Shown here piece after piece: positions 1-14,609 of a stretch of DNA of 31,249 nucleotides (its first letter is position 1; each line of letters opens with the position of its first letter). The stretch spans positions 1 through 31,249 of the IMG/VR virus record IMGVR_UViG_3300030107_002194. One strand, written 5' to 3'. Made by a program: the position numbers and the translations under genes. A model generated the notes under the pieces. That model worked only from the letters and a program-made list of their open reading frames with translations, was not told where the DNA came from and did no database searches. Origin of the DNA: a virus.

Positions 1-120
1 AGCCCATAAAGAACAGACCACCACAGTAGGCAAAACAAACACCATCTGCTCTGTTAGAAAGGCAACTGTCCAACAAGGTACTAGCACCACTAAAGATTTT
101 TTAATTAATGCTACTATCAT
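1..120 (-). CDS. Partial small membrane protein, C-terminus beyond window
   Basis: An ATG at 120 on the minus strand opens a reading frame that runs off the left edge after 40 codons. The start overlaps the stop of the upstream gene by one base (TAATG), a typical translational coupling arrangement. The visible part reads MIVALIKKSLVVLVPCWTVA and then continues hydrophobic, so it looks like a membrane segment after a short basic N-terminus. A holin or another small phage membrane protein would fit. With the C-terminus missing, no function can be assigned. Confidence 0.5.
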   Translation of the reverse strand, partial: MIVALIKKSLVVLVPCWTVAFLTEQMVFVLPTVVVCSLWA

Positions 121-605
121 TACACAATCCCCAATCTAAACCACTTAGGCATAGGTGCGGTCTTATTCCACTCAGCTATTCTTATCTTATCCCCTATATA
201 ATAATTTCTATAGGCTTTAATAGCATCACCTGATACCTTGTACTCCTCAGGCATACATTGAGGTTGTTGTGTAGGTCTAATATTGTCAAAAGTAAAAGGA
301 ACTTTAAGTAGACCTTTTATAACTTCTTCACAAGCATGGGTCTTACCATACCTTTCTGTATATTCATGGCACAAAGACCTACCATGCGACCACAACCATG
401 TGTAATTTATATGAGAATAACCTGCCCATAAAGTGCAAGGATGGTTCTTAAATGCTTCTTTGTATTTTACTTTATCACCATGACCATACCTGTGCCATAC
501 AGAACATAACATTTGAGCTGTTTCTAGTGGCATTTTAACAATGTGTTTATCACACATCATTCTTGCAGATTTTCTAGGGCTAAAGTGTAATCTAAATATA
601 TTCAT
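120..605 (-). CDS. Conserved phage protein with N-terminal CDKH-VKM-ETAQ motif
   Basis: This 161-residue protein begins MNIFRLHFSPRKSARMMCDK and continues with the pattern CDKHIVKMPLETAQML near residues 18-33, then HPC..WA...S..NY.WL and EY..RYGKTHA. From memory, this pattern marks a family of uncharacterised phage proteins found in marine and other phages, sometimes given tentative names, with no function I can vouch for. The conserved Cys, His, Lys and Glu near the N-terminus look like catalytic or metal-binding positions, but that is inference. It is the last complete gene of the minus-strand run, is followed with a one-base overlap by a membrane ORF, and lies four bases downstream of the 88-residue paralogue gene. 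Confidence 0.7.
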   Translation of the reverse strand: MNIFRLHFSPRKSARMMCDKHIVKMPLETAQMLCSVWHRYGHGDKVKYKEAFKNHPCTLWAGYSHINYTWLWSHGRSLCHEYTERYGKTHACEEVIKGLLKVPFTFDNIRPTQQPQCMPEEYKVSGDAIKAYRNYYIGDKIRIAEWNKTAPMPKWFRLGIV

Positions 606-608
606 ACA

Positions 609-875
609 TTATTCCTTTCTTATATTTTTCGTAAGATAATCTATAGTACCTTTAATAATAGCACGATAATACTCATCTAAATCTATATATTTTGTAGCAT
701 AGTAAATAGCATCATATACTATATCATTATCTAATGATAGTATAAAAGATGATGAAACTAATGACAAAGCTTCTTTTTGTTTATCAGTTAAGTAATAATC
801 ATCTAGGTTATCAATAACATCTATTGGACTTATTGATAGTATATCTACAGCATCATCATCAATCATTATACACAT
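609..875 (-). CDS. Small acidic protein, second copy of a tandem paralogue pair
   Basis: This 88-residue acidic protein of unknown function is clearly paralogous to the gene just upstream (866-1108). Both contain DDAVD(I/V)LSISPIDVIDNLD near the N-terminus, LTDKQKE in the middle, SLDNDIVYDAIY.ATK.IDL and a tyrosine-rich C-terminal helix. This copy carries about ten extra residues around the mid-protein KEALSLVSSS segment. Its start overlaps the end of the upstream paralogue by ten bases. The pattern suggests a short helical protein, perhaps a dimer or an inhibitor-type phage protein. I do not recognise a family. Confidence 0.65.
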   Translation of the reverse strand: MCIMIDDDAVDILSISPIDVIDNLDDYYLTDKQKEALSLVSSSFILSLDNDIVYDAIYYATKYIDLDEYYRAIIKGTIDYLTKNIRKE

Positions 876-1108
876 TCCTCATTTGATGTAACAAAATTTT
901 TAAGATAAAATACAGCATCTTCAACAATCTCATGATAATAGTCAGATAAATCTATATGTTTTGTAGCATGGTAAATAGCATCATATACTATATCATTATC
1001 TAAAGATAATATAATTTCTTTTTGTTTATCAGTTAAAGTACACTTATCTAAGTTATCAATAACATCTATTGGACTTATTGATAGTACATCTACAGCATCA
1101 TCAATCAT
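866..1108 (-). CDS. Small acidic protein, first copy of a tandem paralogue pair
   Basis: This 80-residue partner of the downstream 88-residue protein begins MIDDAVDVLSISPIDVIDNL and ends with a short asparagine/glutamate tail containing a cysteine. The two proteins share their N-terminal block and the NDIVYDAIYHATKHIDL block almost residue for residue, while the middle and C-terminus differ, so the pair arose by local duplication. The gene starts at the stop codon of the 68-residue gene upstream, with a one-base overlap. Function unknown. Confidence 0.65.
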   Translation of the reverse strand: MIDDAVDVLSISPIDVIDNLDKCTLTDKQKEIILSLDNDIVYDAIYHATKHIDLSDYYHEIVEDAVFYLKNFVTSNEECV

Positions 1109-1314
1109 TATACACCTGCCATTGTTGCTTTTAATGTTATGGGTGTTACAAATGACATTGCATCATTCCCACATATTGTTTCTAATTCGTCTAAAATTTG
1201 TTGAACAGATGATAACTCCATTGGAAAATGGAAGGTTAATATCTCATCTCCATTGCCATCTGTAAGAGTAAATCCATCTGTTAATGTACTAATATATCCA
1301 TCATAACTCATCAT
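1108..1314 (-). CDS. Hypothetical protein, 68 aa
   Basis: This short protein of unknown function begins MMSYDGYISTLTDGFTLTDG, with alternating polar and hydrophobic residues that suggest beta strands, and a C-terminal stretch LKATMAGV. Its ATG overlaps the TGA of the upstream 58-residue gene (ATGA), so the two are probably translationally coupled. An AAAGGATACA sequence just before the ATG could serve as ribosome binding site. No family recognised. Confidence 0.5.
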   Translation of the reverse strand: MMSYDGYISTLTDGFTLTDGNGDEILTFHFPMELSSVQQILDELETICGNDAMSFVTPITLKATMAGV

Positions 1315-1487
1315 TGTATCCTTTCTATGTTGCTATTTTTTAAGTTAAAAAACGTTCTTAGTAATACCCTCAGTTCCTCATAGGTTAATCCTGCTTCAAT
1401 CCATTCAGGAATAATCTCCTCTGCTTGTTCTAAGGCTTTGAAATACCTCACTTCTTTATCTATTGTTACTCTATAATCTTCACTCAT
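1311..1487 (-). CDS. Hypothetical small acidic protein, 58 aa
   Basis: The reading frame starts MSEDYRVTIDKEVRYFKALE and ends NSNIERIQ. An AAGGAGATAGT ribosome binding site precedes the ATG, which is strong support for a gene this short. Its TGA overlaps the ATG of the 68-residue gene downstream. The middle (EQAEEIIPEWIEAGLTYEEL) looks like two amphipathic helices. The gene fills what would otherwise be a 170-base gap. Unknown function. Confidence 0.6.
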   Translation of the reverse strand: MSEDYRVTIDKEVRYFKALEQAEEIIPEWIEAGLTYEELRVLLRTFFNLKNSNIERIQ

Positions 1488-1488
1488 A

Positions 1489-1797
1489 CTATCTCCTTAC
1501 ATCTTTTAAGTTACCTTCAAAGTATCTATCTCTCTCAATCCTACCTACAGATTGCAACTCATTCAATCCAAAGTATCCTAGCTCATTCTCAAACCCTTTA
1601 ACATATCCAAAGAATAACCAATCATCATAATGTTTCTTCCCATTTATGTATTTATACTTCTTCTCTCCTTCTATGACATACCATGTCCAAGAAGAAAATG
1701 GGTCAAAAAACTTAACCACAATCTTAGGATTATCTGAGTCTACACTATCCATAGGTGGAATTTTCTTTTCTATCTCTTTTGTCATTAGTTTCATCAT
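1489..1797 (-). CDS. DUF2958-family protein
   Basis: This 102-residue protein matches the DUF2958 pattern from memory: an N-terminal K-L-(M/L)-TKEI-KK-(I/L)-PP, then VVKFFDPFSSWTWYVIEGE, DDWLFFGYVKGFENELGYF and a C-terminal LNELQSV...IERDRYF. The family occurs on plasmids, phages and mobile elements and has no established biochemical role. The start used has a GAGG-type site upstream; an internal Met at position 5 is also possible. The N-terminal 53 bases overlap the end of the upstream small membrane protein gene in another frame, which is more overlap than elsewhere in this block. Confidence 0.75.
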   Translation of the reverse strand: MMKLMTKEIEKKIPPMDSVDSDNPKIVVKFFDPFSSWTWYVIEGEKKYKYINGKKHYDDWLFFGYVKGFENELGYFGLNELQSVGRIERDRYFEGNLKDVRR

Positions 1798-1936
1798 CTT
1801 TGTCCTCTTTCTTAGTTAATAATTCTGTTAATAATTCTTTAAATACAATACCTATAATCATTCCTATACCAATCATTATAAGAGTATACCCACTAAATTC
1901 AAGAACTAATCTTGTTTCAGAAAACATATCCTGCAT
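1745..1936 (-). CDS. Small single-pass membrane protein
   Basis: This 63-residue ORF has a clean hydrophobic segment of about 20 residues (roughly positions 12-32, LEFSGYTLIMIGIGMIIGIV) followed by a highly charged tail rich in Lys, Asp and Arg. That organisation is typical of a one-span membrane protein with a cytoplasmic charged end, and Rz-like spanins or small holins look similar. The ATG has a strong AAGGAG site at correct spacing. The 3' end overlaps the DUF2958 gene by 53 bases, so one of the two genes may use a different end or start, although both have supporting signals. Confidence 0.5.
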   Translation of the reverse strand: MQDMFSETRLVLEFSGYTLIMIGIGMIIGIVFKELLTELLTKKEDKDDETNDKRDRKENSTYG

Positions 1937-1957
1937 TTTAACTCCTTACTGTTGCAA

Positions 1958-2284
1958 TTATGCCACACTTCTGAGCTTTTTCTTGTTACCACCTGTAGGT
2001 GACTTAGGTGGCAAGGTATAATTCCCATATCTTTTATGATATACCCTTGTAGAATTACGAAAGTATCTTTTTTCTACCCATTCCTCACCTTTAATATCTG
2101 TAATCCTTGTTGCTTTAAAGTGAAACGGCTCACCTGTATTGTAATATATATAAACTTTTCCTAAGTTAATTACAATACCATTCTTAGTTTTATAAATATT
2201 CAATGCTTTCTTATGTTTTCTTACTCTATATACATCAGGTATTATTTTTAATACTAATTCATTAATCATTGTTCTAATCCTCAT
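1958..2284 (-). CDS. Hypothetical basic protein, 108 aa
   Basis: This basic protein of unknown function has an N-terminal helix-like part (MRIRTMINELVLKIIPDVYR), a middle with beta-strand character (GIVINLGKVYIYYNTGE, then FHFKATRITDI) and a basic tail NKKKLRSVA. It resembles small nucleic-acid-binding phage proteins in composition only. The gene lies 29 bases downstream of the GP88-like gene on the same strand and 21 bases before the small membrane protein gene. No named family recognised. Confidence 0.5.
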   Translation of the reverse strand: MRIRTMINELVLKIIPDVYRVRKHKKALNIYKTKNGIVINLGKVYIYYNTGEPFHFKATRITDIKGEEWVEKRYFRNSTRVYHKRYGNYTLPPKSPTGGNKKKLRSVA

Positions 2285-2313
2285 TAGTTTAAAGTTAAAG
2301 TTATACTACATTA

Positions 2314-3168
2314 CTAAGCTACTAATCTTACTACAAAATCTCCTGTATCTTTTTTAGCATCACCTTTGGCTTTTAAATGCACCCATTTATATTCACCATC
2401 TAAAAACCTAGCATCATACTTATCACCATCTAACCAAGAATATTTCTTAGGTAAGAATTTTGTATTATTGGGTATCTCACCTTGCACTACCATAGCAATA
2501 TTCATACCTCTACTTATAGCTTGATCTACATATTTTTTATAACCTTTTTTACCACTATAGGAAAAAGTTAAGTGATAGATATTGCTATCAGGTATCATTC
2601 TATTAGCAATTTTAGTGTAATCATACCATTTAACACCATACTCCTTAGAATATTTTACCATAATATCCCAGACTACTAATTCCCACCTAATATCACTTGT
2701 ACCATTTAACCTTATAGATGGCATACAATTCTCTTTTTCAGCCTTTCTTACTACTCTCATAATTTCTTTTTCAAGTAGTATTTTATACTCACTTAGGTAT
2801 TGATAATAAAACAAAGTTTTTCTTAATCTACCCATTTCTACAGATTGAAACCTACCTCTACCTGCGGAACGTAAACATGGCTTATGGCAACCTGCCATTA
2901 ATGCCATAGCACAAGTTTGTGTACCACTCCTATCACTAGGTAGAAGATACTGTATCCCTGTTATAACTCCTACTTTCTCATTTTTAACAGTCTTGGCATC
3001 AAGACCAATAGATAATAATCTATCAGGCTTTCTTGTAAATAGTGAATAATACTTAGGTATCTCAAATATTGCATCACAATAATGTTGAGGTACTTTATCT
3101 AAATTATAAACTATTTTTCCTACAAGTTTTTCCCTATGAGAATAGTAGCTTAATTCACATAAATCCAT
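2314..3168 (-). CDS. GP88/DUF7227-like phage protein
   Basis: This 284-residue protein carries a pattern I recall from the phage GP88/DUF7227 group: a GVITGIQYLLPS strand, a cysteine cluster (C near 86, AGCHKPC near 93-98), the block SAGRGRFQSVE followed by RKT, then VR.AEKENCMPSIRLNGTSD, a WYDYTK segment, YHLTFSYS, an NIAMVV strand and a C-terminal DGDKYDARFLD and LKAKGDAKKDTGDFVV. The fold appears to be an alpha/beta barrel-like enzyme with a cysteine cluster, and the biochemical role is not known to me. The ATG follows a GTGAGGACTAA leader that is repeated exactly before the 33-residue gene upstream. It is the largest gene of the minus-strand block. Confidence 0.6.
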   Translation of the reverse strand: MDLCELSYYSHREKLVGKIVYNLDKVPQHYCDAIFEIPKYYSLFTRKPDRLLSIGLDAKTVKNEKVGVITGIQYLLPSDRSGTQTCAMALMAGCHKPCLRSAGRGRFQSVEMGRLRKTLFYYQYLSEYKILLEKEIMRVVRKAEKENCMPSIRLNGTSDIRWELVVWDIMVKYSKEYGVKWYDYTKIANRMIPDSNIYHLTFSYSGKKGYKKYVDQAISRGMNIAMVVQGEIPNNTKFLPKKYSWLDGDKYDARFLDGEYKWVHLKAKGDAKKDTGDFVVRLVA

Positions 3169-3185
3169 TAGTCCTCACTTTCAAA
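3168..3185 (-). repeat. Direct repeat (copy 2) of an 18-base translation-initiation leader
   Basis: On the minus strand this reads TTTGAAAGTGAGGACTAA and ends at the ATG of the GP88-like gene. The same 18 bases occur at 3283-3300 in front of the 33-residue ORF. The GTGAGGA core is a plausible ribosome binding site. The TGA stop of the 33-residue ORF lies inside this copy, so the upstream gene terminates on the ribosome binding site of the next one. Confidence 0.7.
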
Positions 3186-3282
3186 TATACCATGATAATA
3201 AATTCAGGAGTAATGGTATCCACAGTCCAACACTAACCCCTGTTACAAAAATAAAAATACTTTTATAACTTATCTGTAACAT
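3181..3282 (-). CDS. 33-residue membrane micro-protein
   Basis: The frame encodes MLQISYKSIFIFVTGVSVGL followed by WIPLLLNLLSWYI, almost entirely hydrophobic after one lysine, so a single membrane span is predicted. The start has the same 18-base leader with a GAGGA core as the next gene. The stop falls within the leader of the GP88-like gene, coupling the two. Functions such as a small holin, a pinholin-like peptide or an inhibitor of a host membrane protein are possible, but none is shown. The well-formed initiation site is the main support for such a short ORF. Confidence 0.5.
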   Translation of the reverse strand: MLQISYKSIFIFVTGVSVGLWIPLLLNLLSWYI

Positions 3283-3300
3283 TTAGTCCTCACTTTCAAA
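3283..3300 (-). repeat. Direct repeat (copy 1) of the 18-base initiation leader
   Basis: These bases are identical over 18 positions to 3168-3185 and sit directly before the ATG of the 33-residue membrane ORF. They begin two bases after the T-run of the terminator at 3302-3328, so any transcript reading through that terminator immediately presents this ribosome binding site. Confidence 0.7.
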
Positions 3301-3301
3301 C

Positions 3302-3328
3302 AAAAAAAACCCATTGGGAGCCAATAGG
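3302..3328 (-). terminator. Intrinsic terminator on the minus strand, possibly regulated
   Basis: Read on the minus strand, CCTATTGG, a CTC loop and CCAATGGG form an eight-pair stem (one G-U pair) followed by eight consecutive T. This is a textbook Rho-independent terminator for transcripts coming from the 3486-3728 gene. It stands immediately before the leader of the 33-residue and GP88-like genes, a position expected of an attenuator rather than of an operon end. Confidence 0.75.
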
Positions 3329-3440
3329 TTACTTGCCTACTCTTCCGTAGGTCTTACATCATGCAAAGTCTACAATGCTATGAGAATAACTAGCATATCT
3401 AATAGCTAGACTACATGCCTCACCTATTGGCTTCCAATGA
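3302..3440 (-). ncRNA. Candidate structured leader RNA / attenuator
   Basis: This non-coding stretch folds strongly on the minus strand. The arms 3422-3439 and 3312-3329 are complementary over 17 of 18 bases and could close a domain of about 130 nt. Each arm is also a small hairpin on its own (ATTGG with CCAAT), and the downstream hairpin is the terminator. Inside the domain there are pairings ATGCTA/TAGCAT, AGTCTA/TAGACT with a flanking CATG/CATG, and CCTAC/GTAGG with a GGAAGA loop. The long-range pairing and the local hairpins are mutually exclusive, as in an attenuator or riboswitch expression platform. A free-standing small RNA ending at the terminator is the alternative. It matches no RNA family I recognise. 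Confidence 0.5.
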
Positions 3441-3485
3441 GCTTACGTAACTTAATCGTTGCCTCTTATGGTTATGTTATTAATA

Positions 3486-3728
3486 CTATGTATTTAAATT
3501 ATAGTATATAGTACCTATTCTATTCTTCCATTTACCCTTTGCTACTAAATTGTTATAATTTACTTGAGCTACATTATTATACTTAGCTAACCAATTTAAA
3601 TAATTTATATTCTTTTGATTAACTTCTCTTTTCTTTTCAGCTTCAATAGCTTTGCATTTTTTAACCTTGTTAACTTTAGCTTTTCTCTTATGAGAGTGTC
3701 TTTGTTTTTTAGTATATTTCTTTGTCAT
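3486..3728 (-). CDS. Small highly basic protein, 80 aa
   Basis: The likely start is the ATG at 3728, giving MTKKYTKKQRHSHKRKAKVN at the N-terminus, about one third of the first 50 residues being Lys or Arg, then an aromatic/asparagine-rich C-terminus (NYLNWLAKYNNVAQVNYNNL). A longer version starting at 3827 would add 33 residues spanning an AT-rich, promoter-like region and is less likely. The composition suggests nucleic-acid binding. The gene lies between two minus-strand terminators and may have its own promoter (3739-3766). Its stop is about 45 bases before the structured leader. Function unknown. Confidence 0.5.
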   Translation of the reverse strand: MTKKYTKKQRHSHKRKAKVNKVKKCKAIEAEKKREVNQKNINYLNWLAKYNNVAQVNYNNLVAKGKWKNRIGTIYYNLNT

Positions 3729-3738
3729 AATACCCTCT

Positions 3739-3766
3739 ATTATACATAGGTGATTTTGAAACACAA
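3739..3766 (-). promoter_or_regulatory. Possible sigma70-type promoter before the basic protein gene
   Basis: On the minus strand, TTGTGT (3766-3761) and a perfect TATAAT (3744-3739) are separated by 16 bases, the same spacing as the two divergent promoters at 4567-4672. A long T/A-rich tract lies upstream and could act as an UP element. The predicted start of transcription would fall only three or four bases before the ATG at 3728, implying a nearly leaderless message, which lowers confidence. Confidence 0.35.
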
Positions 3767-3838
3767 GAAAAAAAAACATAATTTTTAAACTTTTTTTTAT
3801 TTCTTTTAATATCAATAACTTATACATACTTTAGATAC

Positions 3839-3861
3839 AAAAAAACCTGCTAAAAAGCAGG
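3839..3861 (-). terminator. Intrinsic terminator after the 61-residue gene
   Basis: On the minus strand, CCTGCT and AGCAGG form a six-pair stem with a TTTT loop, followed by seven T. It lies 25 bases beyond the stop codon of the gene at 3887-4072 and would end the transcript started at the minus-strand promoter in the control region. On the plus strand the following sequence is only CTTTAATGG, so termination in that direction is weaker. Confidence 0.8.
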
Positions 3862-3886
3862 CTTTAATGGTTTATTTAAGTTTATT

Positions 3887-4072
3887 TTAGATAAAAGCAG
3901 GTTTATTCCCAATATCTGAATCATATGAAGTAAACCTATACAAATCATAGTCTATTGTTTTTGTTTCTTTAATACCTGAAGCATCGCATATATGAAACTT
4001 ACAATTTTTATTAATATCTGAATTATACTTGTTTTGTAAATCTTTTAATTCTCTGTTTGTTATATTTGACAT
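3887..4072 (-). CDS. Hypothetical protein, 61 aa, first gene of the minus-strand transcript
   Basis: The protein begins MSNITNRELKDLQNKYNSDI, contains a CKFHICDAS segment with two cysteines and a histidine, and ends with a tyrosine/aspartate-rich stretch. The ATG follows GAAAGG at a spacing of about eight bases. It is the first ORF downstream of the minus-strand divergent promoter and is followed by its own terminator, so it would be transcribed alone and early. A small regulator or host-takeover protein is plausible from the position only. No family recognised. Confidence 0.5.
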   Translation of the reverse strand: MSNITNRELKDLQNKYNSDINKNCKFHICDASGIKETKTIDYDLYRFTSYDSDIGNKPAFI

Positions 4073-4566
4073 TTTAAAAACCTTTCATTTAAAAATTAAT
4101 TAAGTAAGTGTTATTAACTTTAAATCATACTTTTTAATAAATGTAAATATATGTATACGTTAAAGAGTCAATAAACTTTATATGTGATAAATATGTCACA
4201 ACCTACTGAATTTATTAGAATATGCCAGTAGAGATAGGTTATAAATAACAAGCATAAAACAAGCTATAAAAAAGCTTTAAAGTTTATCTTTAATATATTT
4301 AAGAGTTTAATTATAAGTTTATTTATAATATAAGTTATAATATAAGTTATAAATTGCACCAATAAAAAAAATAAATATAAATGTACGGACAATTAAGGGC
4401 ATGCTAGGGACAGTAGGGGTAGCCCCCCATATATATGCCCTGATGCTCAATTTTTTGGTGAAAAAAAGGTAATTAAAAAAGAAGTAATAGAATCAATAGG
4501 TTATACAGATGGCAACCTATTAGTATACTATAAGGTACTGGAGGGGTGAACAAGATACAAGTATCT
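4073..4566 (-). other. AT-rich non-coding leader of the minus-strand transcript
   Basis: No convincing ORF was found on either strand over nearly 500 bases. The region holds several inverted repeats: AATAGGTT/AACCTATT (4495-4502 and 4514-4521); GGGCAT/ATGCCC (4397-4402 and 4435-4440) enclosing GGGG-TAG-CCCC (4416-4426); and CTACTG/CAGTAG (4203-4208 and 4226-4231). A very AT-rich stretch spans about 4260-4380. If the promoter at 4567-4594 is active, all of this becomes an untranslated leader before the 61-residue gene. A replication origin or protein-binding region is an alternative reading. Confidence 0.45.
4325..4352. repeat. Tandem 12-base AT repeat
   Basis: Two perfect copies of ATAATATAAGTT (4325-4336 and 4337-4348) are followed by the first four bases of a third. 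It lies within the most AT-rich part of the control region. It could be a DNA-unwinding or iteron-like element, but two copies are too few to claim an origin. Confidence 0.5.
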
Positions 4567-4594
4567 ATTATACCAGTCCTGACGGATTTGTCAA
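4567..4594 (-). promoter_or_regulatory. Sigma70-type promoter driving the minus strand
   Basis: On the minus strand there is a perfect TTGACA (4594-4589) and a perfect TATAAT (4572-4567), 16 bases apart. The -35 and spacer contain TGACAAATCCGTCA, an imperfect dyad. It is the mirror image of the plus-strand promoter at 4645-4672, and the two share a 17-base element with one mismatch. It is expected to transcribe the 61-residue gene and possibly the rest of the minus-strand block. Confidence 0.8.
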
Positions 4595-4660
4595 GTCTTT
4601 TTTTAAGTTTTTTTAATTTTTTTTTAAAATAGTGCATTTTTTACTTGACAAATCTGTCAG
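4577..4660. promoter_or_regulatory. Paired inverted operator-like elements between divergent promoters
   Basis: The 17-base element CTTGACAAATCTGTCAG at 4644-4660 recurs in inverted orientation at 4579-4595 with one substitution (CCGTCAG). Each copy holds the -35 box and a TGACA-N4-TGTCA type dyad. The plus copy is perfect in its arms, and the minus copy has one arm mismatch. Such placement would let one regulator occlude RNA polymerase at both promoters, with different affinity. No regulator gene is evident in this window, so the binding protein would be encoded elsewhere or by the host. Confidence 0.65.
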
Positions 4661-4672
4661 AATGTGTATAAT
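4645..4672 (+). promoter_or_regulatory. Sigma70-type promoter driving terS and the head genes
   Basis: A perfect TTGACA (4645-4650) and a perfect TATAAT (4667-4672) are separated by 16 bases, giving a transcription start near 4679 and a leader of about 175 bases before terS. TGACAAATCTGTCA (4646-4659), spanning the end of the -35 and the spacer, is a dyad with five-base arms and looks like an operator. The upstream 4597-4642 region is almost pure T/A and could act as a shared UP element for both divergent promoters. Confidence 0.85.
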
Positions 4673-4695
4673 AGAAACATAAGCTAGTAGATATA

Positions 4696-4707
4696 GTCAA
4701 ATTTGAC
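4696..4707. repeat. 12-base perfect palindrome in the terS leader
   Basis: GTCAAATTTGAC is a perfect palindrome about 17 bases downstream of the predicted transcription start of the plus-strand promoter. Its position would suit an additional operator or a small RNA hairpin. It resembles the TTGACAAA part of the promoter element, which makes a related binding specificity possible. Confidence 0.5.
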
Positions 4708-4762
4708 CATAAATATTTGATTGATATAGCAAAATAGACTACTACTGCTTATAATTTTAATT

Positions 4763-4840
4763 ATGAAATTGGAGGAGGGTTCTGTAGATGCTATTCGTAA
4801 GACATCTTTTCCAAATGAGCCTAGCTCCCCTTCTCCATAA
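4763..4840 (+). promoter_or_regulatory. Structured 5' leader of terS with mini-ORFs
   Basis: GGAGGAGGG (4771-4779) can pair with CCCTTCTCC (4828-4836) through nine pairs including one G-U, closing a loop of about 48 bases that contains a second hairpin (AGATG with CATCT around a TTCG-bearing loop). GGAGGAGGG is also a very strong ribosome binding site for an 18-codon frame starting at 4788 (MLFVRHLFQMSLAPLLHN, ending at the TAG 4842-4844). A second frame, 25 codons, starts at 4763 and ends at 4840 without a ribosome binding site of its own. The pairing would hide the strong site. This looks like a leader-peptide or RNA switch arrangement, but either mini-ORF could be chance. Confidence 0.45.
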
Positions 4841-4854
4841 TTAGTAGGTATGGT

Positions 4855-5253
4855 ATGAGTGCAGTAGCAAAAAAGACATTAACAGATAAACAAGAGAAAT
4901 TCTTAGACTCTCTGTTTGAAAACGGAGGTAATGTTCAAGATGCTATGGAAGTTGCAGACTATCACCCCAATTCCAGATCCAATCTTATTAATTCTGTAAA
5001 GAATGAAATCATAGAAAGAACAAAATCAGCATTAGCAGGGTCAGCTCCTAAATCTGCTAAACGTATTCAAGAAGGATTAGATGCTGATGGCACATTACCT
5101 AGTAGTCAGATGGAAGTTAGAATGAAAGCTGCTGCTGATATACTAGATAGAATAGGAATTACTAAACGACAGGAAATAAACGTACAGGCAGAGGTAGTAC
5201 ATGGAGTTGTTCTTTTGCCTAGTAAGAAACCAATGGTGAATGTAACACCATAA
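4855..5253 (+). CDS. terS: Terminase small subunit
   Basis: This 132-residue protein starts MSAVAKKTLTDKQEKFLDSL and has the typical small-terminase opening: LTDKQ..FLD.L..NGGN..DAMEVADY, a helix-turn-helix-like DNA-binding part, then a helical oligomerisation region (IIERTKSALAGSAPKSAKRI) and MEVRMKAAADILDRIGITKR before a short tail. In the phage it recognises the packaging site and stimulates the large subunit. Its place just ahead of terL, at the head of the plus-strand operon and about 175 bases downstream of the promoter, supports the call. The ribosome binding site is weak (GTAGGTATGGT), which matches the idea of a regulated leader. Confidence 0.8.
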   Translation: MSAVAKKTLTDKQEKFLDSLFENGGNVQDAMEVADYHPNSRSNLINSVKNEIIERTKSALAGSAPKSAKRIQEGLDADGTLPSSQMEVRMKAAADILDRIGITKRQEINVQAEVVHGVVLLPSKKPMVNVTP

Positions 5254-5265
5254 CAAGAAGAATAA

Positions 5266-5427
5266 ATGCCCTTTAAGCCCATTAAAAGCAAATATGAAAT
5301 TGATGAGGTAGATGAGGAAGTTTTGTGGGAAGAATTAAGGAAAGTACCGGAAGATTTATCATTAAAGGAACTTAATACTTTTTTTAAAGAGTATTTACAG
5401 AAGAATCCAAATATGTTTATAAAGTAG
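5266..5427 (+). CDS. Hypothetical small acidic protein, 53 aa
   Basis: The frame encodes MPFKPIKSKYEIDEVDEEVL and continues WEELRKVPEDLSLKELNTFFKEYLQKNPNMFIK, an acidic, mostly helical little protein. An AAGAAGAATAA stretch precedes the ATG. It fills the gap between terS and the HExxH protein in the same direction. Its role is unknown; a packaging accessory is suggested only by its position. Confidence 0.55.
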   Translation: MPFKPIKSKYEIDEVDEEVLWEELRKVPEDLSLKELNTFFKEYLQKNPNMFIK

Positions 5428-5433
5428 TGTGGT

Positions 5434-5766
5434 ATGAGTAAGCAAGATATAGAACCTACTATGACAATAAAAGTAGGTGGAATAGATATAGATGTATTTT
5501 TTGTTCCCGGTGATAATGATAGCTTCGGTGACTTTACTTATTTACAAACACAGATACGAGTAGATTCTCGATTAGAAGGCGGTGCATTAGTTGATACGTT
5601 ACTCCATGAAGTATTTCATGCAATCTGGTCTATAGGTCAATTAAAAGAAAAAGATCAAGAAGAAGAACGAGCAGTTGCAGTAATGGCAAGTTATATGACA
5701 CAAATATTAAGAGATAATCCTCACTTAGTAAAATGGATAACAAAGAACCTTCCTCGTAATGGATAA
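5434..5766 (+). CDS. HExxH putative zinc metalloprotease
   Basis: This 110-residue protein contains HEVFH at residues 58-62, the zinc-binding HExxH signature, preceded by a hydrophobic helix (GALVDTLLHEV), with Glu residues at 76-78 that could supply the third ligand. It resembles small phage and ImmA/IrrE- or SprT-like metallopeptidases in motif, but is short. Being between terS and terL, it could act on a head or packaging protein, or cleave a host regulator. The gene overlaps terL by eight bases. Catalytic activity is inferred from the motif only. Confidence 0.65.
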   Translation: MSKQDIEPTMTIKVGGIDIDVFFVPGDNDSFGDFTYLQTQIRVDSRLEGGALVDTLLHEVFHAIWSIGQLKEKDQEEERAVAVMASYMTQILRDNPHLVKWITKNLPRNG

Positions 5767-7321
5767 AGAAAAACCAAAAAGAAGGTATCAATATAGCAGT
5801 ACCACAAAAGCAAAACAAAAAGCAGCAAGAGATATTTCAAAAAAGAAAAAAGAACTTGCTAAGTTAGAAGCTAAGAAAAATAAGTTAACCCATAAGTCTA
5901 AAGGAGTTGTAGAAGAGGGAGTACAAAAGGTAGAGAAAGATAGTGAAGTTATCTTTTCTCCTAATGAAGGTCCTCAATATGATTTCCTTGCTGCTCCTGA
6001 AAAAGAAGTGTTATATGGCGGTGCAGCAGGTGGTGGCAAGTCTTACGCAATGTTAATGGATTTGTTGCGATATGCAAGTAATGGAAACCATAGAGCATTA
6101 TTGTTAAGAAGAACATTAGCAGAGTTAACAGAGTTAATAGATAAAAGTAAACAAATATATCCAAGAGCTTTTCCTTCTGCAAGGTTTAAAGAATCAACAA
6201 AGACTTGGGTATTTCCTTCTGGAGCTACGGCTTTGTTTAGTTATGTCGATCAAGATGATGATGTATATCGTTATCAAGGTATGGCATTTACTTGGATTGG
6301 GATTGATGAGCTAGGACACTATCCCAGTCCATTCGTTTGGAACTACTTACGTTCTCGTTTACGTACTACAGATCCTTCTATAGATACGTATATGAGAGCT
6401 ACAGCGAATCCGGGTGGATCTGGTGGACATTGGATTAAAAAGATGTTCATAGACCCATCACCTCCAAACGAACCATTCTGGGCTACAGATACTGATACTG
6501 GTAAAGTATTAGCGTATAGTAAAGGGCATGAGAAAGAAGGGCAACCTTTATTTGCTCGTAAGTTTATTCCAGCTAGATTAACAGATAATCCTTATCTTGT
6601 TAAAGATGGAACATACGAAGCAATGCTAATGTCACTTCCTGAAGTACAACGTAGACGTTTACTAGATGGGGATTGGAATGTTAGTGAAGGTGCAGCCTTT
6701 AGTGAGTTTAGTCAACAACACCATGTTATTGAACCAGTAGAGATACCTTATAACTGGGTTAGACTAAGAGCTTGTGATTATGGATTTTCTAGTCCATCCT
6801 GTGTATTATGGGGAGCTATAGATTGGGATGGATGTATTTGGATTTATCGAGAGCTGTATCAAAATAGACTAACAGCAGATGAATTAGCAGAATACATTAT
6901 GGAATTAGAATCAGATGATCCTCAAATGTATATGTCCGTTTTGGATAAATCGTGTTGGAACAAATTAGGAATGGGTAAGAGTATTGCCCTATCTATGATA
7001 GAAAAAGGATTAAGATGGGTTCCATCTAATTCTGATAGGATGCAAGGTAAGCAAGAAGTACACAAACGATTACAGCTTACCAGAGATGATAAACCTAAAT
7101 TAAAAATATTTAATACGTGTACAAATATTATTAGAACATTACCTACATTACCTCTTAGTAAAAACAATAGTGAAGATGTAGATACAAAAGCAGAAGATCA
7201 CGCATATGATGCATTACGTTATATGTTTATGACACAACAAAGTAATAGACCATTTATTCCTCAGTATGGTAGAGGAGCACAACAAAAAGAAGAAGTACAA
7301 GATTCAATATTTGGATATTAA
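5759..7321 (+). CDS. terL: Terminase large subunit
   Basis: This is the DNA-packaging motor ATPase and nuclease (520 residues). After a lysine-rich coiled-coil-like N-terminal extension of about 60 residues come Walker A GGAAGGGKS (87-95), Walker B WIGIDE with D183 and E184, a coupling motif ATANPGG near 214-220, and an RNase H-like nuclease domain with acidic residues D340 (RACDYG), D396 (VLDKS) and D484 (HAYDALRY). Length and motif order are normal for a large terminase of the Terminase_6 type. The basic extension is unusual and might bind DNA. It overlaps the preceding HExxH gene by eight bases and is followed after 11 bases by the lysine-rich protein. Confidence 0.95.
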   Translation: MDKEKPKRRYQYSSTTKAKQKAARDISKKKKELAKLEAKKNKLTHKSKGVVEEGVQKVEKDSEVIFSPNEGPQYDFLAAPEKEVLYGGAAGGGKSYAMLMDLLRYASNGNHRALLLRRTLAELTELIDKSKQIYPRAFPSARFKESTKTWVFPSGATALFSYVDQDDDVYRYQGMAFTWIGIDELGHYPSPFVWNYLRSRLRTTDPSIDTYMRATANPGGSGGHWIKKMFIDPSPPNEPFWATDTDTGKVLAYSKGHEKEGQPLFARKFIPARLTDNPYLVKDGTYEAMLMSLPEVQRRRLLDGDWNVSEGAAFSEFSQQHHVIEPVEIPYNWVRLRACDYGFSSPSCVLWGAIDWDGCIWIYRELYQNRLTADELAEYIMELESDDPQMYMSVLDKSCWNKLGMGKSIALSMIEKGLRWVPSNSDRMQGKQEVHKRLQLTRDDKPKLKIFNTCTNIIRTLPTLPLSKNNSEDVDTKAEDHAYDALRYMFMTQQSNRPFIPQYGRGAQQKEEVQDSIFGY

Positions 7322-7332
7322 AGGGATTAATA

Positions 7333-8367
7333 ATGAATTTAAATAATAAAACTTTAGCAGAATTAGAAAAGCTTCTTAAACAATCAAAAACTGCATCTGA
7401 TAGAAATCGTATTCGTGCAGCTATAAGAAAAAAAGAAGAAACACAAGTAAAGCTAAAAAGACAAAACCTTTTAAAAAAAGGTAAAGAAATTATTGCAGAA
7501 GAAAAACAAAAAAAACAACAAAAAGTAGCAGCAGAAAAAGATATAACAAGTTCATTAAAAGATGAAAAAGCAAAAGGTAAAACAAAATCTAAAACTTCTC
7601 CTGCTGTTGAACTTACTGAAAAACAAAAAGGATTATTACGTGGTATAAAACGTGATAATTCTACTATGACTACTAAACAACTAGAAAATCAAATTAGACG
7701 TAAACCAGATATAACTGTAAAAGAATTAAAAGCAGCAGTAGGTAATGCTTCTAAAAAAAGAACTGGAGTTGTTAAAAAAACAACACCTATACGAAAACCT
7801 AAAATAAAACCTATAGTAAAAACTAGAGTAAAACCTGTAGATTCTCCACCTTCATTAAGAAAAAATATAGGTAAGAAACCTGCATATTTTGCAGATCAAC
7901 CAAGAGTTTCAGATATAAAAGCAACAAAAGCTGTAGTAACTAAAGTTAAACCTAAACTTGACGAAACTGTTGTAGCATCAATGCCAAAAAGTATTAAACC
8001 AGCCGCTAAGAAAATTTCTGATATGTCTTTAAAAGATGTAGGTAGAATGACTGCTAAAAAACTAGGAGATCTTCGTGAGAAAGGTAATAAAGTTGATGAC
8101 TTTCTTGAAGGTGTATTTGCTAAGATAGGTGGCGGTAGAACACGAACTAGAGCAGAAAGAGTTAGAGATAGAGAAACTACAGAACGCATGGAACGTGAAA
8201 GAATGAACAAAGGGGGATCAGTAATGTATGGTATGAAAAAAAAGAAAAAAGAAATGATGGGAGGTGGTTCTGTTAAAATGAAACCTGCCAAACAAATGAA
8301 TAGCAAAAAATATGCTATGAATAGAGGTGGACTAGCCTCACTTAGAAAACCAACAAGAACTATATAA
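7333..8367 (+). CDS. Lysine-rich low-complexity protein of unknown function
   Basis: This 344-residue, very basic protein opens with helical repeats (LAELEKLLKQSKTASDRNRI) and a long K/Q/E-rich stretch suggesting coiled coil, followed by a disordered K/P/T-rich middle and a C-terminus with glycine/methionine/lysine runs (MYGMKKKKKEMMGGGSVKMK). Proteins with similar Met-Gly-Lys tails occur in head modules of marine phages, where they may be packaged with DNA, though this is from memory and not firm. It has a GGGATTAATA leader and sits between terL and a small head gene. A DNA-binding internal head protein is a reasonable guess. Confidence 0.55.
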   Translation: MNLNNKTLAELEKLLKQSKTASDRNRIRAAIRKKEETQVKLKRQNLLKKGKEIIAEEKQKKQQKVAAEKDITSSLKDEKAKGKTKSKTSPAVELTEKQKGLLRGIKRDNSTMTTKQLENQIRRKPDITVKELKAAVGNASKKRTGVVKKTTPIRKPKIKPIVKTRVKPVDSPPSLRKNIGKKPAYFADQPRVSDIKATKAVVTKVKPKLDETVVASMPKSIKPAAKKISDMSLKDVGRMTAKKLGDLREKGNKVDDFLEGVFAKIGGGRTRTRAERVRDRETTERMERERMNKGGSVMYGMKKKKKEMMGGGSVKMKPAKQMNSKKYAMNRGGLASLRKPTRTI

Positions 8368-8379
8368 GGAGATATTACA

Positions 8380-8625
8380 ATGCCTATGGGTAAAGCTTAT
8401 GGTAAAAATGAAATGCAATCAGTATCTAAACAAGGTGAAATGAGTCCTATTCCTGATGGACAATTGTACAGAGAAGGATTAGAAGGCGACATAGTTGGTC
8501 CAACTAATACATCTTTTACAAACACATTAGATGCTAAAACTAAACCGGGATCTATACATAATCAAGAAAAAGCTATTTTTGCAATGGCTGATGATTATTC
8601 ATTATATAATACATCAGGTAAATAA
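8380..8625 (+). CDS. Hypothetical protein, 81 aa
   Basis: This small protein begins MPMGKAYGKNEMQSVSKQGE and contains few strongly hydrophobic residues, so it is probably extended or disordered alone. A clear AAGGAGATATTACA ribosome binding site precedes the ATG. Its position just before the portal gene suggests a minor head protein. No family recognised. Confidence 0.55.
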   Translation: MPMGKAYGKNEMQSVSKQGEMSPIPDGQLYREGLEGDIVGPTNTSFTNTLDAKTKPGSIHNQEKAIFAMADDYSLYNTSGK

Positions 8626-8642
8626 TTAACCGAAAGATTAGT

Positions 8643-10748
8643 ATGGCTATAGGTGATGAAGATCCTGAAGTTATTGAACTCGATTCAGAAGAAACTCCGG
8701 GTCTAACAGGCTACATAAAGCAAAAGTTTATTGATGCTGAAAACGGAAGATTATCTGATGAAAGACGTTGGTTAAAATCCTATAAAAACTATAGGGGTAT
8801 AACTGATAATACAACGTCTTTACGTAGCTCAGAAAAATCTAAAGTATTTATTAAGATAACAAAAGTTAAAGTTTTGGCTGCCTTTGGTCAAATTATTGAC
8901 ATTCTGTTTGCTAATAATAAATTTCCTATTAGTGTTACCAGCACACCAGTTCCTGAAGGTGTGGCTGAATTTGCACATCTTCCTTTACCAGAAGAACAAC
9001 AAATACCTAATGAATTAAAAGATATGCCTTTATCTCAGTTAGGATTTGATGGAAATAACTTAGATGAGTTTCTTGCAGGACTAGCAGAAAAATATAAAGG
9101 GTCTAATTTAGAAGAAGGTGTTTCTAAGTTTGGTGCTCCACAAATTGAACCTGCTAAAGAAAGTGCAAGAGTTTTAGAAAAAACAATTCACGATCAATTA
9201 ACTGACACTAATGCAGCAACAATCTTTCGTCATGCAATTTTTGAATGTTGTTTATTAGGTACTGGTATTATTAAAGGACCTTTTAACTTTAATAAAACTG
9301 TTCATAATTGGGAAATGACTGATGAAGGTAAAACATATGAGCCTTATGATAAAGTTGTTCCACGTATTGAAGCTGTATCTTGTTGGGATTTTTATCCTGA
9401 TCCTGCTGCTGTTTCTATAGAAGATGCTGAGTATATTATACAAAGACATAGATTAAGTAAAGATCAATTACGTGCTTTAATTAATAGACCTCACTTTAAT
9501 ACAGAAGCAGTACGAGCAGCACTAACAGAAGAACCTAATTATGAAGAAAGATATTTTGAACCTGTTCTTCATACAGAAGATGATGATCCTTTATTTGCAG
9601 AAAAAAGATATGAGATCTTAGAATATTGGGGTACATTAGATGCTAGTCTTGCAAGATTGTTTGGACTAGATGTACCTTCAGATATAGATGATCTAGATGC
9701 AGTACAAGTTAATGCATGGATTTCTAATGGTCATGTATTACGTTTAGTATTAAATCCTTTTGTACCAGCAAGAATACCCTATTATAGTTTTCCTTACGAA
9801 TTAAATCCTTATCAATTATTTGGTATTGGTGTTGCAGAGAACATGGAAGATTCTCAACTACTTATGAATGGTCATATGAGAATGGCTATTGATAACTTAG
9901 CTCTTGCAGGTAACATGGTATTTGATATTGATGAAACACAATTAGTTCCGGGTCAAAATATGGAAGTATATCCCGGTAAAATATTTAGAAGGCAGTCAGG
10001 ACAAAGTGGTACAGCAGTTAATGGATTAAAGTTTCCTAATACTGCACCAGAAAATTTACAAATGTTTGATACAGCTAGACGTTTATCAGACGAACAAACA
10101 GGTATTCCTTCTGTTATACACGGACAAACAGGAGTAACTGGCACAGGCAGAACTGCTGCTGGATTATCTATGCTGCTTAATTCCGCAGGATTATCTATTA
10201 AAACTGTAATTAAAAACGTAGATGACTTTTTATTAAAACCTTTAGGTGAAGCGTTCTTTCAATGGAATATGCAATTCAATGACACTAATGCAGAGATTGT
10301 TGGTGATTTAGAAATTAAACCTAAAGGAACATCTGCTATCATGCAGAAAGAAGTACGTAGTCAAAGACTAACAGCTTTACTACAGACTGTTGTTAATCCT
10401 GTTCTTGCACCATTTATTAAAATACCTAACTTAATTAAAGAACTTGCAATATCCCAAGACATAGATCCAGATCAATTAGTTAATGATCCTAACGAAGCAG
10501 CAATTTTTGCAGATATATTAAGAGGTTTAGCAAATGCATCAGGAAACAGCCCAGAAGCTTCTCCCAATAGTCAACAATCCCCAGACATGGGAGCCAATAC
10601 AGCAGTACCTACAGGAGCAGATCCAATGGACCCATCAGGCGTTGGCGGTGGAACAATCGGAGTCGGTAATACGCCAGTTGCAGGGGAAAGTAACTTTACT
10701 GGGGAACCTCCTACAACTGAAGGAACTGGTGAAGTCCAGCTTGGATAA
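8643..10748 (+). CDS. Portal protein
   Basis: This 701-residue protein is the probable dodecameric portal through which DNA enters and leaves the head. Supporting features are its size, its place after terL and ahead of the scaffold and capsid genes, and its sequence style. The N-terminus has GYIKQKFIDAENGRLSDERR and WLKSYKNYRGI; the core contains a large acidic/aromatic region with the segment VPRIEAVSCWDFYPDPAA, typical of podoviral portals; and near residues 380-500 come RIPYYSFPYE, the helix VAENMEDSQLLMNGHMRMAI and a GRTAAGLSMLL motif. The last 70 residues are Gly/Pro/Ser/Thr-rich low complexity and coincide with an overlapping gene in another frame. It appears related to the large portals of podoviruses infecting marine Alphaproteobacteria. 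Confidence 0.85.
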   Translation: MAIGDEDPEVIELDSEETPGLTGYIKQKFIDAENGRLSDERRWLKSYKNYRGITDNTTSLRSSEKSKVFIKITKVKVLAAFGQIIDILFANNKFPISVTSTPVPEGVAEFAHLPLPEEQQIPNELKDMPLSQLGFDGNNLDEFLAGLAEKYKGSNLEEGVSKFGAPQIEPAKESARVLEKTIHDQLTDTNAATIFRHAIFECCLLGTGIIKGPFNFNKTVHNWEMTDEGKTYEPYDKVVPRIEAVSCWDFYPDPAAVSIEDAEYIIQRHRLSKDQLRALINRPHFNTEAVRAALTEEPNYEERYFEPVLHTEDDDPLFAEKRYEILEYWGTLDASLARLFGLDVPSDIDDLDAVQVNAWISNGHVLRLVLNPFVPARIPYYSFPYELNPYQLFGIGVAENMEDSQLLMNGHMRMAIDNLALAGNMVFDIDETQLVPGQNMEVYPGKIFRRQSGQSGTAVNGLKFPNTAPENLQMFDTARRLSDEQTGIPSVIHGQTGVTGTGRTAAGLSMLLNSAGLSIKTVIKNVDDFLLKPLGEAFFQWNMQFNDTNAEIVGDLEIKPKGTSAIMQKEVRSQRLTALLQTVVNPVLAPFIKIPNLIKELAISQDIDPDQLVNDPNEAAIFADILRGLANASGNSPEASPNSQQSPDMGANTAVPTGADPMDPSGVGGGTIGVGNTPVAGESNFTGEPPTTEGTGEVQLG

Positions 10749-10782
10749 CTATAAGATAGAGAAACAACATGGCATTAAATGA
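10534..10782 (+). CDS. Small helical protein overprinted on the portal 3' end
   Basis: This 82-residue frame overlaps the portal gene by 215 bases and the next gene by 14. The sequence reads like a genuine protein: MHQETAQKLLPIVNNPQTWE, then a predicted coiled helix pair (YLQEQIQWTHQALAVEQSES, RQLQGKVTLLGNLLQLKELV). The pattern of an E-S-x-x-IRQLQG-x-x-x-LL-x-LL type helix resembles small proteins that follow portal genes in other phages, by memory. AAGAGG (10520-10525) stands at correct spacing from the ATG. In the portal frame the same DNA encodes a low-complexity tail, as expected if this frame is the constrained one. Confidence 0.6.
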   Translation: MHQETAQKLLPIVNNPQTWEPIQQYLQEQIQWTHQALAVEQSESVIRQLQGKVTLLGNLLQLKELVKSSLDNYKIEKQHGIK

Positions 10783-11665
10783 TGAAATGACAAGACTAAA
10801 AGAAACAAAAAGATCTTCAAGATTTACTGTTACTCCTTCTGCTTTAAATACTACTATGATAACACAAAATCAAGATCAAACTATCTATGGTGTTATATCT
10901 GATATTCTTAATGGTGCTAAAACAGAGTTAAGTAATGTTGATTCTAATTTACCTATAACACCTGTTTTAGATTTTGATTCTTTAAATAGTAAACCTCAAA
11001 GTCAACTTGACCAAGAAACTTTTCAACAACTGGCAGAAGTTAATCCAGATCTTTCTGCAAAACTATTACCTGATGATGAAATGATTCGTTATAAACAACG
11101 ATTAATAGAAGCAGCAAAAAAAGCAAGAGAAAAAAAACAAGAAGGCGGTGAAATTGAAACACAACCTCCTATGGAAACACAACCTCCTATGGAAGAACAA
11201 GCTGATACACAATTAGATATAGCTGGTTTAGGTCCTTTAGGTTTAGTAGATGATATGGATGGAGAAAAACAAACTGGTGTTGCAGATGATTTACCTATGG
11301 AGTTACCTGAAGGTTCTTATGTATTAAATGCTCATGCTGTAGAATTAATTGGTGTAAAAGATTTAAATCAGATTATTAAAGATGCTATTACAATAGCAGT
11401 AGAAGCAGGATATGATTTACCAAAAAAAGTAGATCCTACAAAAAAAGTTCCTATTCAAATATCTAATGGTGAGTTTGTAATACCTGAAATACTTGTTCCT
11501 ATTATAGGATTAGAAAATTTAGAAAAAATGAATCGTAGAGGATTAGAGTATCGTAAACAACAAGAAGCAGAAGCAGGTGAAAAACAACAAGCTGCTAATG
11601 TACAAGAAGCACCAGTAGATGCAGAAACTCAAGACCTTATGGACCAAATAAAAGATGTTGCGTGA
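10769..11665 (+). CDS. Head-module structural protein with duplicated GEFVIP-type motif
   Basis: This 298-residue acidic protein has a polar N-terminal half, a short tandem repeat ETQPPM twice near residues 130-141, and two copies of a motif I recall from marine phage structural proteins: LPEGSYVLNAHAVELIGVKD (about 179-198) and ISNGEFVIPEILVPIIGLEN (about 231-250). Each reads as a two-strand unit ending in an (A/V)xxIGxxxL helix. The C-terminus is Q/E/A rich. The product is probably a virion or assembly protein; function unknown. The ATG overlaps the end of the overprinted gene, and the stop overlaps the lysozyme start by 11 bases. Confidence 0.6.
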   Translation: MALNDEMTRLKETKRSSRFTVTPSALNTTMITQNQDQTIYGVISDILNGAKTELSNVDSNLPITPVLDFDSLNSKPQSQLDQETFQQLAEVNPDLSAKLLPDDEMIRYKQRLIEAAKKAREKKQEGGEIETQPPMETQPPMEEQADTQLDIAGLGPLGLVDDMDGEKQTGVADDLPMELPEGSYVLNAHAVELIGVKDLNQIIKDAITIAVEAGYDLPKKVDPTKKVPIQISNGEFVIPEILVPIIGLENLEKMNRRGLEYRKQQEAEAGEKQQAANVQEAPVDAETQDLMDQIKDVA

Positions 11666-12140
11666 GTTTATAAAAGCAGTAGAAAATCCAGCTCAAGTAG
11701 GTAAAGAAGGAGATGTATGGTTTCCACATGATTCTCCTGAAGGTGGATTACCTACACTAGGTTATGGACATAAATTAACTTTAGAAGAGAATGAAGATCA
11801 ATTAGTATATTGTATTAACATATTACATGGTTGTTCAGATGCAGAGATTGATGAAATATTAGAGGAAGATATAAAAGCTGCAAGTAATGTTGCGGAAAAA
11901 TGTGTTCCAGAATTTCATACTTTATCTGAAACTAAACAGGATATGTTAATAGAATTTGCTTTTAATCTTGGTTATGGATTAAAACAATTTAAGAAATTTA
12001 TAAAGGCTCTCATTGATGATGATTGGGATACTGTTAAGAAGGAGTATAAAAGATTTTATCGTACTCCTGATGGACAACTCCAAGAAGTCAAACATAGAAA
12101 TGAAGAGTTTTATAAATACTTTCTGAGTAGAAACCCTTAA
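11655..12140 (+). CDS. GH24-like lysozyme
   Basis: This 161-residue protein resembles phage T4-type lysozymes (muramidases). The start contains E10 (FIKAVE), and PTLGYGHKLT near 33-42 corresponds to the conserved T-x-G-x-G-H strand, with D26 and T34 as candidate partners of the catalytic glutamate. Downstream helices LIEFAFNLGYGLKQFKKF and WDTVKKEYKRFYR match the C-terminal lobe. It lacks a signal peptide. Located inside the head operon, between portal-associated genes and scaffold, it may be a virion-associated hydrolase used for entry, or the endolysin, exported by a holin. It overlaps the previous gene by 11 bases and is followed by a short hairpin-bearing spacer. Confidence 0.75.
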   Translation: MLREFIKAVENPAQVGKEGDVWFPHDSPEGGLPTLGYGHKLTLEENEDQLVYCINILHGCSDAEIDEILEEDIKAASNVAEKCVPEFHTLSETKQDMLIEFAFNLGYGLKQFKKFIKALIDDDWDTVKKEYKRFYRTPDGQLQEVKHRNEEFYKYFLSRNP

Positions 12141-12172
12141 TCGGCTCTACTTATTAACACCAAAAAGGATAC

Positions 12173-12203
12173 CCAAAGCTGTCACTTTGGTCCCTAAGGA
12201 GGT
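12173..12203 (+). promoter_or_regulatory. Hairpin and strong ribosome binding site before the scaffold gene
   Basis: CCAAAG and CTTTGG (12173-12178 and 12185-12190) form a six-pair stem just upstream of TAAGGAGGT (12195-12203), a near-perfect Shine-Dalgarno sequence with good spacing to the ATG at 12211. No T-run follows, so it is not a terminator. It may stabilise a processed 5' end or support the high expression needed for scaffold and capsid. Confidence 0.55.
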
Positions 12204-12210
12204 ATAAAAA

Positions 12211-13050
12211 ATGATTGATAATAAACCAACAGAAAAGGAAAAACCAAAGCATACCCCATATCAGGGTGAATATAAAAAAGATCTTCTCAAACCTGATGAA
12301 GCACCAGAGCCTGATATATCTGACCTTTCTGAAATAGAAAAAACTCAGACACCAGAAGGAATGGTTGCTAAATCTAAAGATCATGATTGGAAGAAGCGAT
12401 ACGCTGATCTCAAAAGTTACCATGATCGTCAAAAGAATGAGTGGACACAACAAAAGGAATTACTGGAAGCTCAACAAAAGTTAGCTGAAAAAAGTCAAGT
12501 CCTTCAACAAATGCCAAAGTCTCCTGAAGAGATAGAGGAATTTAAAAAGGATTATCCAGATGTTTACGGAGTTGTGGAAACTGTTTCTAAACTACAAGCG
12601 GAAGCTAAAGCAGTAGAACTTGAAGAAAGAATTTCTGCTTTACGTCAACGTGAAGAAGAAGCATCTTACAAAACTGCTGAACAGGAATTGTTATCTATCC
12701 ATCCAGACTTTGTTGAATTGAAAAAGGATGCAGAATTTTTAGATTGGTTAGATAGACAACCTGCTACTATAGCAGATGGAATTTATAAAAACCGAACTGA
12801 TGCTAAATGGGCTGCTAGGGTACTTGATCTGTATAAATTAGATTCTGGTAATGTCAATCAAAAAAAGCAACCTAGATCTTCTAAAAGTGCAGCAGAAGCT
12901 GTTACTAAAACTAAAAGGTCATCCGTTAAAACAACAGATGATGAAAAGAAGATTTGGACTACTCAAGAAATTTCTCGATTAAAGCCTCGTGAGTTTGAAA
13001 AATTAGAACAAGAACTTGACGCAGCAAATCGAGAAGGAAGAATAATTTAA
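12211..13050 (+). CDS. Scaffolding protein
   Basis: This 279-residue acidic/basic patchy protein has the features of a capsid scaffold. It has a disordered N-terminus, then DWKKRYADLKSYHDRQKNEW near residues 59-78, a long coiled-coil region up to about 155 (QQKELLEAQQKLAEKSQVLQ), a conserved-looking helical part YKTAEQELLSIHPDFVELKK and FLDWLDRQPATIADGIY, and a basic C-terminus (TKTKRSSVKT). It is directly ahead of the major capsid gene and has one of the strongest ribosome binding sites here. Such proteins guide prohead assembly and leave before DNA fills the head. No protease-type head maturation gene is adjacent. Confidence 0.85.
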   Translation: MIDNKPTEKEKPKHTPYQGEYKKDLLKPDEAPEPDISDLSEIEKTQTPEGMVAKSKDHDWKKRYADLKSYHDRQKNEWTQQKELLEAQQKLAEKSQVLQQMPKSPEEIEEFKKDYPDVYGVVETVSKLQAEAKAVELEERISALRQREEEASYKTAEQELLSIHPDFVELKKDAEFLDWLDRQPATIADGIYKNRTDAKWAARVLDLYKLDSGNVNQKKQPRSSKSAAEAVTKTKRSSVKTTDDEKKIWTTQEISRLKPREFEKLEQELDAANREGRII

Positions 13051-13069
13051 CTTTTAAGGAGAAAATGAC

Positions 13070-14026: not shown

Positions 14027-14045
14027 CCGATAGGAGAAATGTATA

Positions 14046-14537: not shown

Positions 14538-14552
14538 TATTATATAGGTTTT

Positions 14553-14583
14553 GAGGAGTTCCTTAAAAACTCCTCCTCTTTTT
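14553..14583 (+). terminator. Intrinsic terminator ending the head module
   Basis: GAGGAGTT and AACTCCTC form an eight-pair stem with a seven-base loop, followed by CTCTTTTT. It lies 15 bases after the decoration-type gene and would end or reduce transcription from the terS promoter, raising capsid relative to tail expression. No promoter with a clear -35/-10 was found immediately downstream. Confidence 0.85.
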
Positions 14584-14609
14584 GCTAAGTTCAATTAACG
14601 GAGATACAT

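Follow-up and report, generated by a model that had tools for sequence, protein, structure and literature searches.

A probable intrinsic terminator with a distant second arm in the early operon of an HMO-2011-like marine phage

Lambda tR1 is a phage early-operon attenuator that is read through after antitermination. The locus described here resembles such attenuators in that a terminator stands after the first early gene and ahead of the remainder of the operon; unlike at lambda tR1, we recognised no nut-like site and identified no antiterminator protein, the small basic open reading frame (ORF) at the head of the block having no known family. It belongs to a phage of the HMO-2011-like type, which is widespread in the sea and whose transcription control has, to our knowledge, been little studied. 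The window, by which we mean the whole stretch of DNA analysed, is a virus contig of 31,249 bases, a 31-kb fragment with the IMG/VR record IMGVR_UViG_3300030107_002194. Since the named phages nearest to its TerL (5759–7321) are the Roseobacter phages CRP-345, CRP-13 and CRP-1 and Puniceispirillum phage HMO-2011, at 53–56% identity, its sequence places it as an HMO-2011-like marine phage. Packaging and structural genes occupy the plus strand, and a block of small early-type genes, a GP88-family gene among them, lies on the minus strand.

Within this block, minus-strand positions 3444–3302 carry a near-perfect inverted repeat with T8 at its end and the next ribosome binding site (RBS) close behind. 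A sequence-only reading of the window had already located the core of the repeat, and its coordinates are right: CATTGGAAGCCAATAGGT at 3439–3422 pairs with 3329–3312 at 17 of 18 positions; extended to 23 nt, the repeat matches at 87%, and its arms stand 92 nt apart. Pairing of such quality within 150 nt has two centres in the window and none in 20 whole-window shuffles. Folded as minus-strand RNA, the 161-nt region reaches −54.9 kcal/mol (z −5.0), and none of 200 shuffles was as good. The 5′ arm of the long-range stem (3422–3444, AAGCTCATTGGAAGCCAATAGGT) is itself an interrupted palindrome, ATTGG-AAG-CCAAT, while the 3′ arm (3307–3329) doubles as a local terminator hairpin, ACCTATTGG-CTC-CCAATGGGT, of 10 pairs (about −11.2 to −11.5 kcal/mol, z −3.5). 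Between the arms lies a loop domain of about 90 nt (3330–3421), predicted to fold into an irregular hairpin and then a short CCTAC/GTAGG hairpin, and the U-tract follows at 3302–3309.

The earlier identification of an intrinsic terminator with eight T is borne out, as the local 3′ hairpin AACCTATTGGCTCCCAATGGGTT and its T-run form one of only two classic terminators in positions 1–16000 of the window, the other lying at 3865–3842. Read on the opposite strand, the stem is preceded by an A-run and lacks a T-run behind it, as fits a terminator of the minus strand. When long stems ending at a T-run were ranked across 1.03 Mb of related phage DNA, the element of the window came out strongest with a score of 30.4, followed by a different element at 20.5 and, in third place at 20.2, by a homolog in a second phage. 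Like intrinsic terminators in general, the element has a hairpin that runs straight into eight U without a break, on the strand that carries the neighbouring genes; unlike them, it has an extra complementary arm about 115 nt upstream, giving a stem of 21–23 bp and a loop of 40–90 nt instead of 3–8 nt. The signal is of an ordinary kind, and this distant arm, which lengthens the stem, is its uncommon part.

The homolog lies in contig IMGVR_UViG_3300025286_000771 (L002), whose TerL is 85% identical to that of the window. It is found at about 2799–2711 on the minus strand, in the same place and context, and both contigs share the gene order of promoter, small basic ORF, spacer, stem with T8, and RBS. 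Arms and T8 together are 89–90% identical between the two phages, above TerL (83% in this comparison) and well above the small ORF at its 3′ end (70%); the T8 is identical, and 19 of the 21 aligned bases of the 5′ arm agree. The loop, at 90 nt in the window and 38 nt in L002, aligns poorly and is conserved neither in length nor in sequence. A terminator would be expected to keep its arms and let its loop vary, as seen here, and an aptamer to do the reverse. The proposal of a minus-strand RNA element with a terminator ahead of an RBS is supported, the second phage sharing the element in sequence and position, with its spacing amended: in place of the two bases suggested between terminator and initiation leader, the T8 of the window ends at 3302 and the Shine-Dalgarno sequence (SD) GTGAGGA follows about 9 nt later, and in L002 the SD GGAGG comes directly after T8. 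In L002 the long stem loses two of its inner pairs and the local hairpin one pair, and the consensus structure, built from these two sequences only, has 17 pairs, of which none is changed on both sides and three on one side.

Other readings of the element were considered. One is that the small-gene transcript gives rise to a stable small RNA: its last 140 nt or so, closed off by long stem and terminator, would be processed or would accumulate and act in trans on host or phage RNAs. Ends that pair over 21–23 bp with a z of −5, a closing stem kept in L002, and an interior hairpin in L002 that is more stable than its own shuffles (z −2.75) are all in keeping with such an RNA. However, the interior, where targeting sequences would lie, is unconserved, differs by about 50 nt in length and folds at chance level in the window, and no convincing promoter lies directly ahead of the 5′ arm, and we therefore consider a small RNA unlikely. 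The arms are moreover direct repeats of one palindrome, both copies of which are perfect in the window, as would suit a DNA-level element: the two ATTGGnnnCCAAT palindromes might be paired operators, or the decayed remains of a mobile element with hairpins at its ends. Yet the second palindrome is imperfect in L002, both phages have the element in the same place with the same asymmetric T8, and the window holds no other copy, so that a DNA-level role seems very improbable.

A terminator with two possible stems invites comparison with riboswitch and attenuator expression platforms, which likewise combine alternative pairings with a terminator ahead of an RBS. The sequence-only reading had seen mutually exclusive folds here, with the long-range stem competing against two local hairpins. 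The long-range stem and the terminator hairpin share the U8 at their end, so each of them should terminate, and when the growing RNA is folded by minimum energy, which models the process crudely and leaves out kinetics, the long-range stem forms as the 3′ arm emerges in the window and in L002 alike. As modelled, the two folds are not an obvious ON/OFF pair, and a switch made of them is not supported. Blocking the arm-to-arm pairing costs the RNA 14.4 kcal/mol in the window and 12.6 kcal/mol in L002, and because the local hairpin of L002 is weak (only −6.0 kcal/mol, with a mismatch), the long-range stem is the better-conserved strong form.

A riboswitch, or an attenuator responsive to a protein, whose loop domain would bind a ligand and thereby decide between the two structures, is doubtful at best. 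Two alternative folds do exist, the interior is multibranched, and an RBS sits directly behind the terminator; but neither fold is an antiterminator, the putative aptamer is precisely the unconserved part, and the element follows a coding gene and does not lie in a plain 5′ leader. The internal stems (GCATG/AGTCTA/GCTAT and CCTAC/GTAGG) do appear in the predicted fold, but the interior alone (3331–3420) is no more stable than chance (z −0.96). Rfam 15 gave no match at gathering score, its weak matches being at chance level, which counts against a known riboswitch family. Left unclassed by the sequence-only reading, the element reads as a known kind, an intrinsic terminator or attenuator. Searches for tRNA and tmRNA were negative.

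The genes on either side suggest what such a terminator might do. Upstream of the element, an 80-aa small basic ORF ending in KGKWKNRIGTIYYNLNT (3486–3728, minus strand) starts almost without a leader behind a −10-like TATAAT at about 3745–3740; it matched no Pfam or PHROGs family, and in the window no good −35 box accompanies it. The L002 counterpart is also near-leaderless, lies behind a sigma-70-like promoter (TTGATA-16-TATAAT) and shares the C-terminus KGKWKxRIGTIxYxLN. The spacer between small ORF and stem (3445–3485) holds a block common to both phages, GGCAACGATTAAGTT in the window and GGAAGCGATTAAATT in L002, with 26 of 35 aligned bases identical and CGATTAA shared. Past the terminator, the first ORF of the window is a 33-aa membrane-peptide-like one (3181–3282, minus strand) served by GTGAGGA, followed by the main downstream early gene, the GP88-family gene at 2314–3168 on the same strand (PF17338, E 2e-30; phrog_1617); in L002, too, the SD after the terminator leads into an early block with another GP88-family gene.

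Promoter scans, whose calls are consensus matches only, found no strong promoter-like site between T8 and the GP88 gene in the window, nor just past T8 in L002. Gene order in both phages, together with these scans, places the terminator after the first gene of a block and ahead of its other genes, with no strong promoter-like site in between, and since nothing strong was found between T8 and GP88, downstream expression plausibly needs read-through. Further upstream, the early genes are preceded by a perfect sigma-70-like consensus match, TTGACA-16-TATAAT, at 4567–4594 on the minus strand. The second classic intrinsic terminator (3842–3865, minus strand) comes after a 61-aa ORF without family (4072–3887, minus strand), so that the path from the strong promoter at 4594 to GP88 passes two terminators in succession.

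The minus-strand match at 4594–4567 is one half of a divergent pair, the other being an equally perfect TTGACA-16-TATAAT on the plus strand at 4645–4672. The pair lies in 4561–4678, in an inverted repeat of 36 nt whose core, TTGACAAATC(T/C)GTCAG, is operator-like, and recurs in L002 at 3984–3957 and 4035–4062. This divergent promoter region may be an early/late control region.

We consider it likely, from the sequence, the predicted folds, and the position and arms common to the second phage, that the element is an intrinsic (Rho-independent) terminator by which the early operon is attenuated from within. Starting just upstream of the small basic gene, host RNA polymerase would transcribe it; as the 3′ arm is made, it would fold back on the 5′ arm made about 115 nt earlier, over 21–23 bp directly ahead of the eight U, or, failing that long-range pairing, on itself over 10 bp. 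Most transcripts would then stop at the U-tract, which would give the small basic protein an mRNA with strong structure at its 3′ end, and only read-through would reach the RBS a few bases on and the GP88 gene block. The outcome would be a ratio of the first early gene to the later ones that is fixed or delayed. Passage of transcription through this region, its termination and the efficiency of that step, and the regulatory use are what we infer for this attenuator. Against it stand the two homologs only, with no two-sided compensatory change, and the fact that a simple terminator has no need of a distant second arm or of a spacer block that is conserved. If a strong terminator does divide the early block behind its first gene, it would be a concrete, testable control point, and the element a plausible volume control for the later genes.

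A phage-specific, two-state terminator is a further reading. In it the strong long-range stem and the short local hairpin would differ in termination efficiency, and capture of the 5′ arm, or of the conserved CGATTAA spacer, by a factor from phage or host would shift the balance and so time the early genes. We rate this as improbable; the small basic protein would be the obvious candidate for such a factor, being a candidate regulator by its position and charge only.

The order of RNA segment, terminator and ORF is also that of type III toxin-antitoxin loci: in ToxIN, a terminator stands between the RNA and the ORF (PMC5086642). A unit of this type would consist of an RNA antitoxin, a terminator and a toxin gene. 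Unlike in ToxIN, no tandem repeat array was found upstream of the terminator and no toxin homolog beside it, as the neighbours matched no toxin family and no ToxN/CptN/TenpN-like gene was seen downstream. With these two defining features missing, we rejected the toxin-antitoxin reading, which we consider scarcely credible.

Our searches for further relatives led back to L002. Arm DNA patterns matched, among viral contigs, only that contig and chance sites, mostly within coding sequence and none with the structure of the element, and among genome contigs only coding or chance sites; a match in L058 was dismissed as chance, lying inside other sequence. Protein-guided searches with the GP88 gene, the small basic ORF and a 108-aa ORF returned nothing or only the L002 contig. 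TerL searches returned many relatives, but a covariance model of the window and L002 sequences found no third member among them or among 47 whole records. As many of the TerL-related contigs are too short to reach this region, absence elsewhere is weak evidence. Literature searches on the element itself, and on terminators in the early operons of these phages, yielded nothing directly relevant.

Four relatives carry a nearly invariant block, CATAGTATCGAGTAACATATGGGTGCCGTCCCACCCTGCCTAATGCGAAGCGGATGTTAACTGGAGG, on the minus strand (L017 3860–3765, L035 4630–4535, L011 2755–2655 and L012 460–355), placed after a small basic ORF and directly ahead of an SD, in the position that the element has in the window. 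Its sequence is compatible with a leader peptide of 13 codons, MGAVPPCLMRSGC*. In L035 the two changes GGT to GGA and CCA to CCT are synonymous, and in a GGGU/ACCC stem they would equally compensate for each other. Although it looked like a related RNA, the block folds no better than shuffles and can be taken for a leader peptide with synonymous changes, and we did not include it among the homologs of the element.

Other repeats were also present. An inverted repeat around CTTACATGC...GCATGTAAG with a 33–37-nt loop occurs in L026 (53–123), L029 (6007–6073) and L030 (1809–1881), and lies upstream of terminase genes in several relatives. In the window, the adjacent small ORFs at 609–875 and 866–1108 have near-identical N-terminal parts (DDDAVDILSISPIDVIDNLD and DDAVDVLSISPIDVIDNLD) and, judged by these, are probably a tandem gene duplication. 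The same genome also holds two pairs of related ORFs, at 14610–15254, 15255–15914, 23676–24254 and 26927–27499, that look prolyl-hydroxylase-like by eye.
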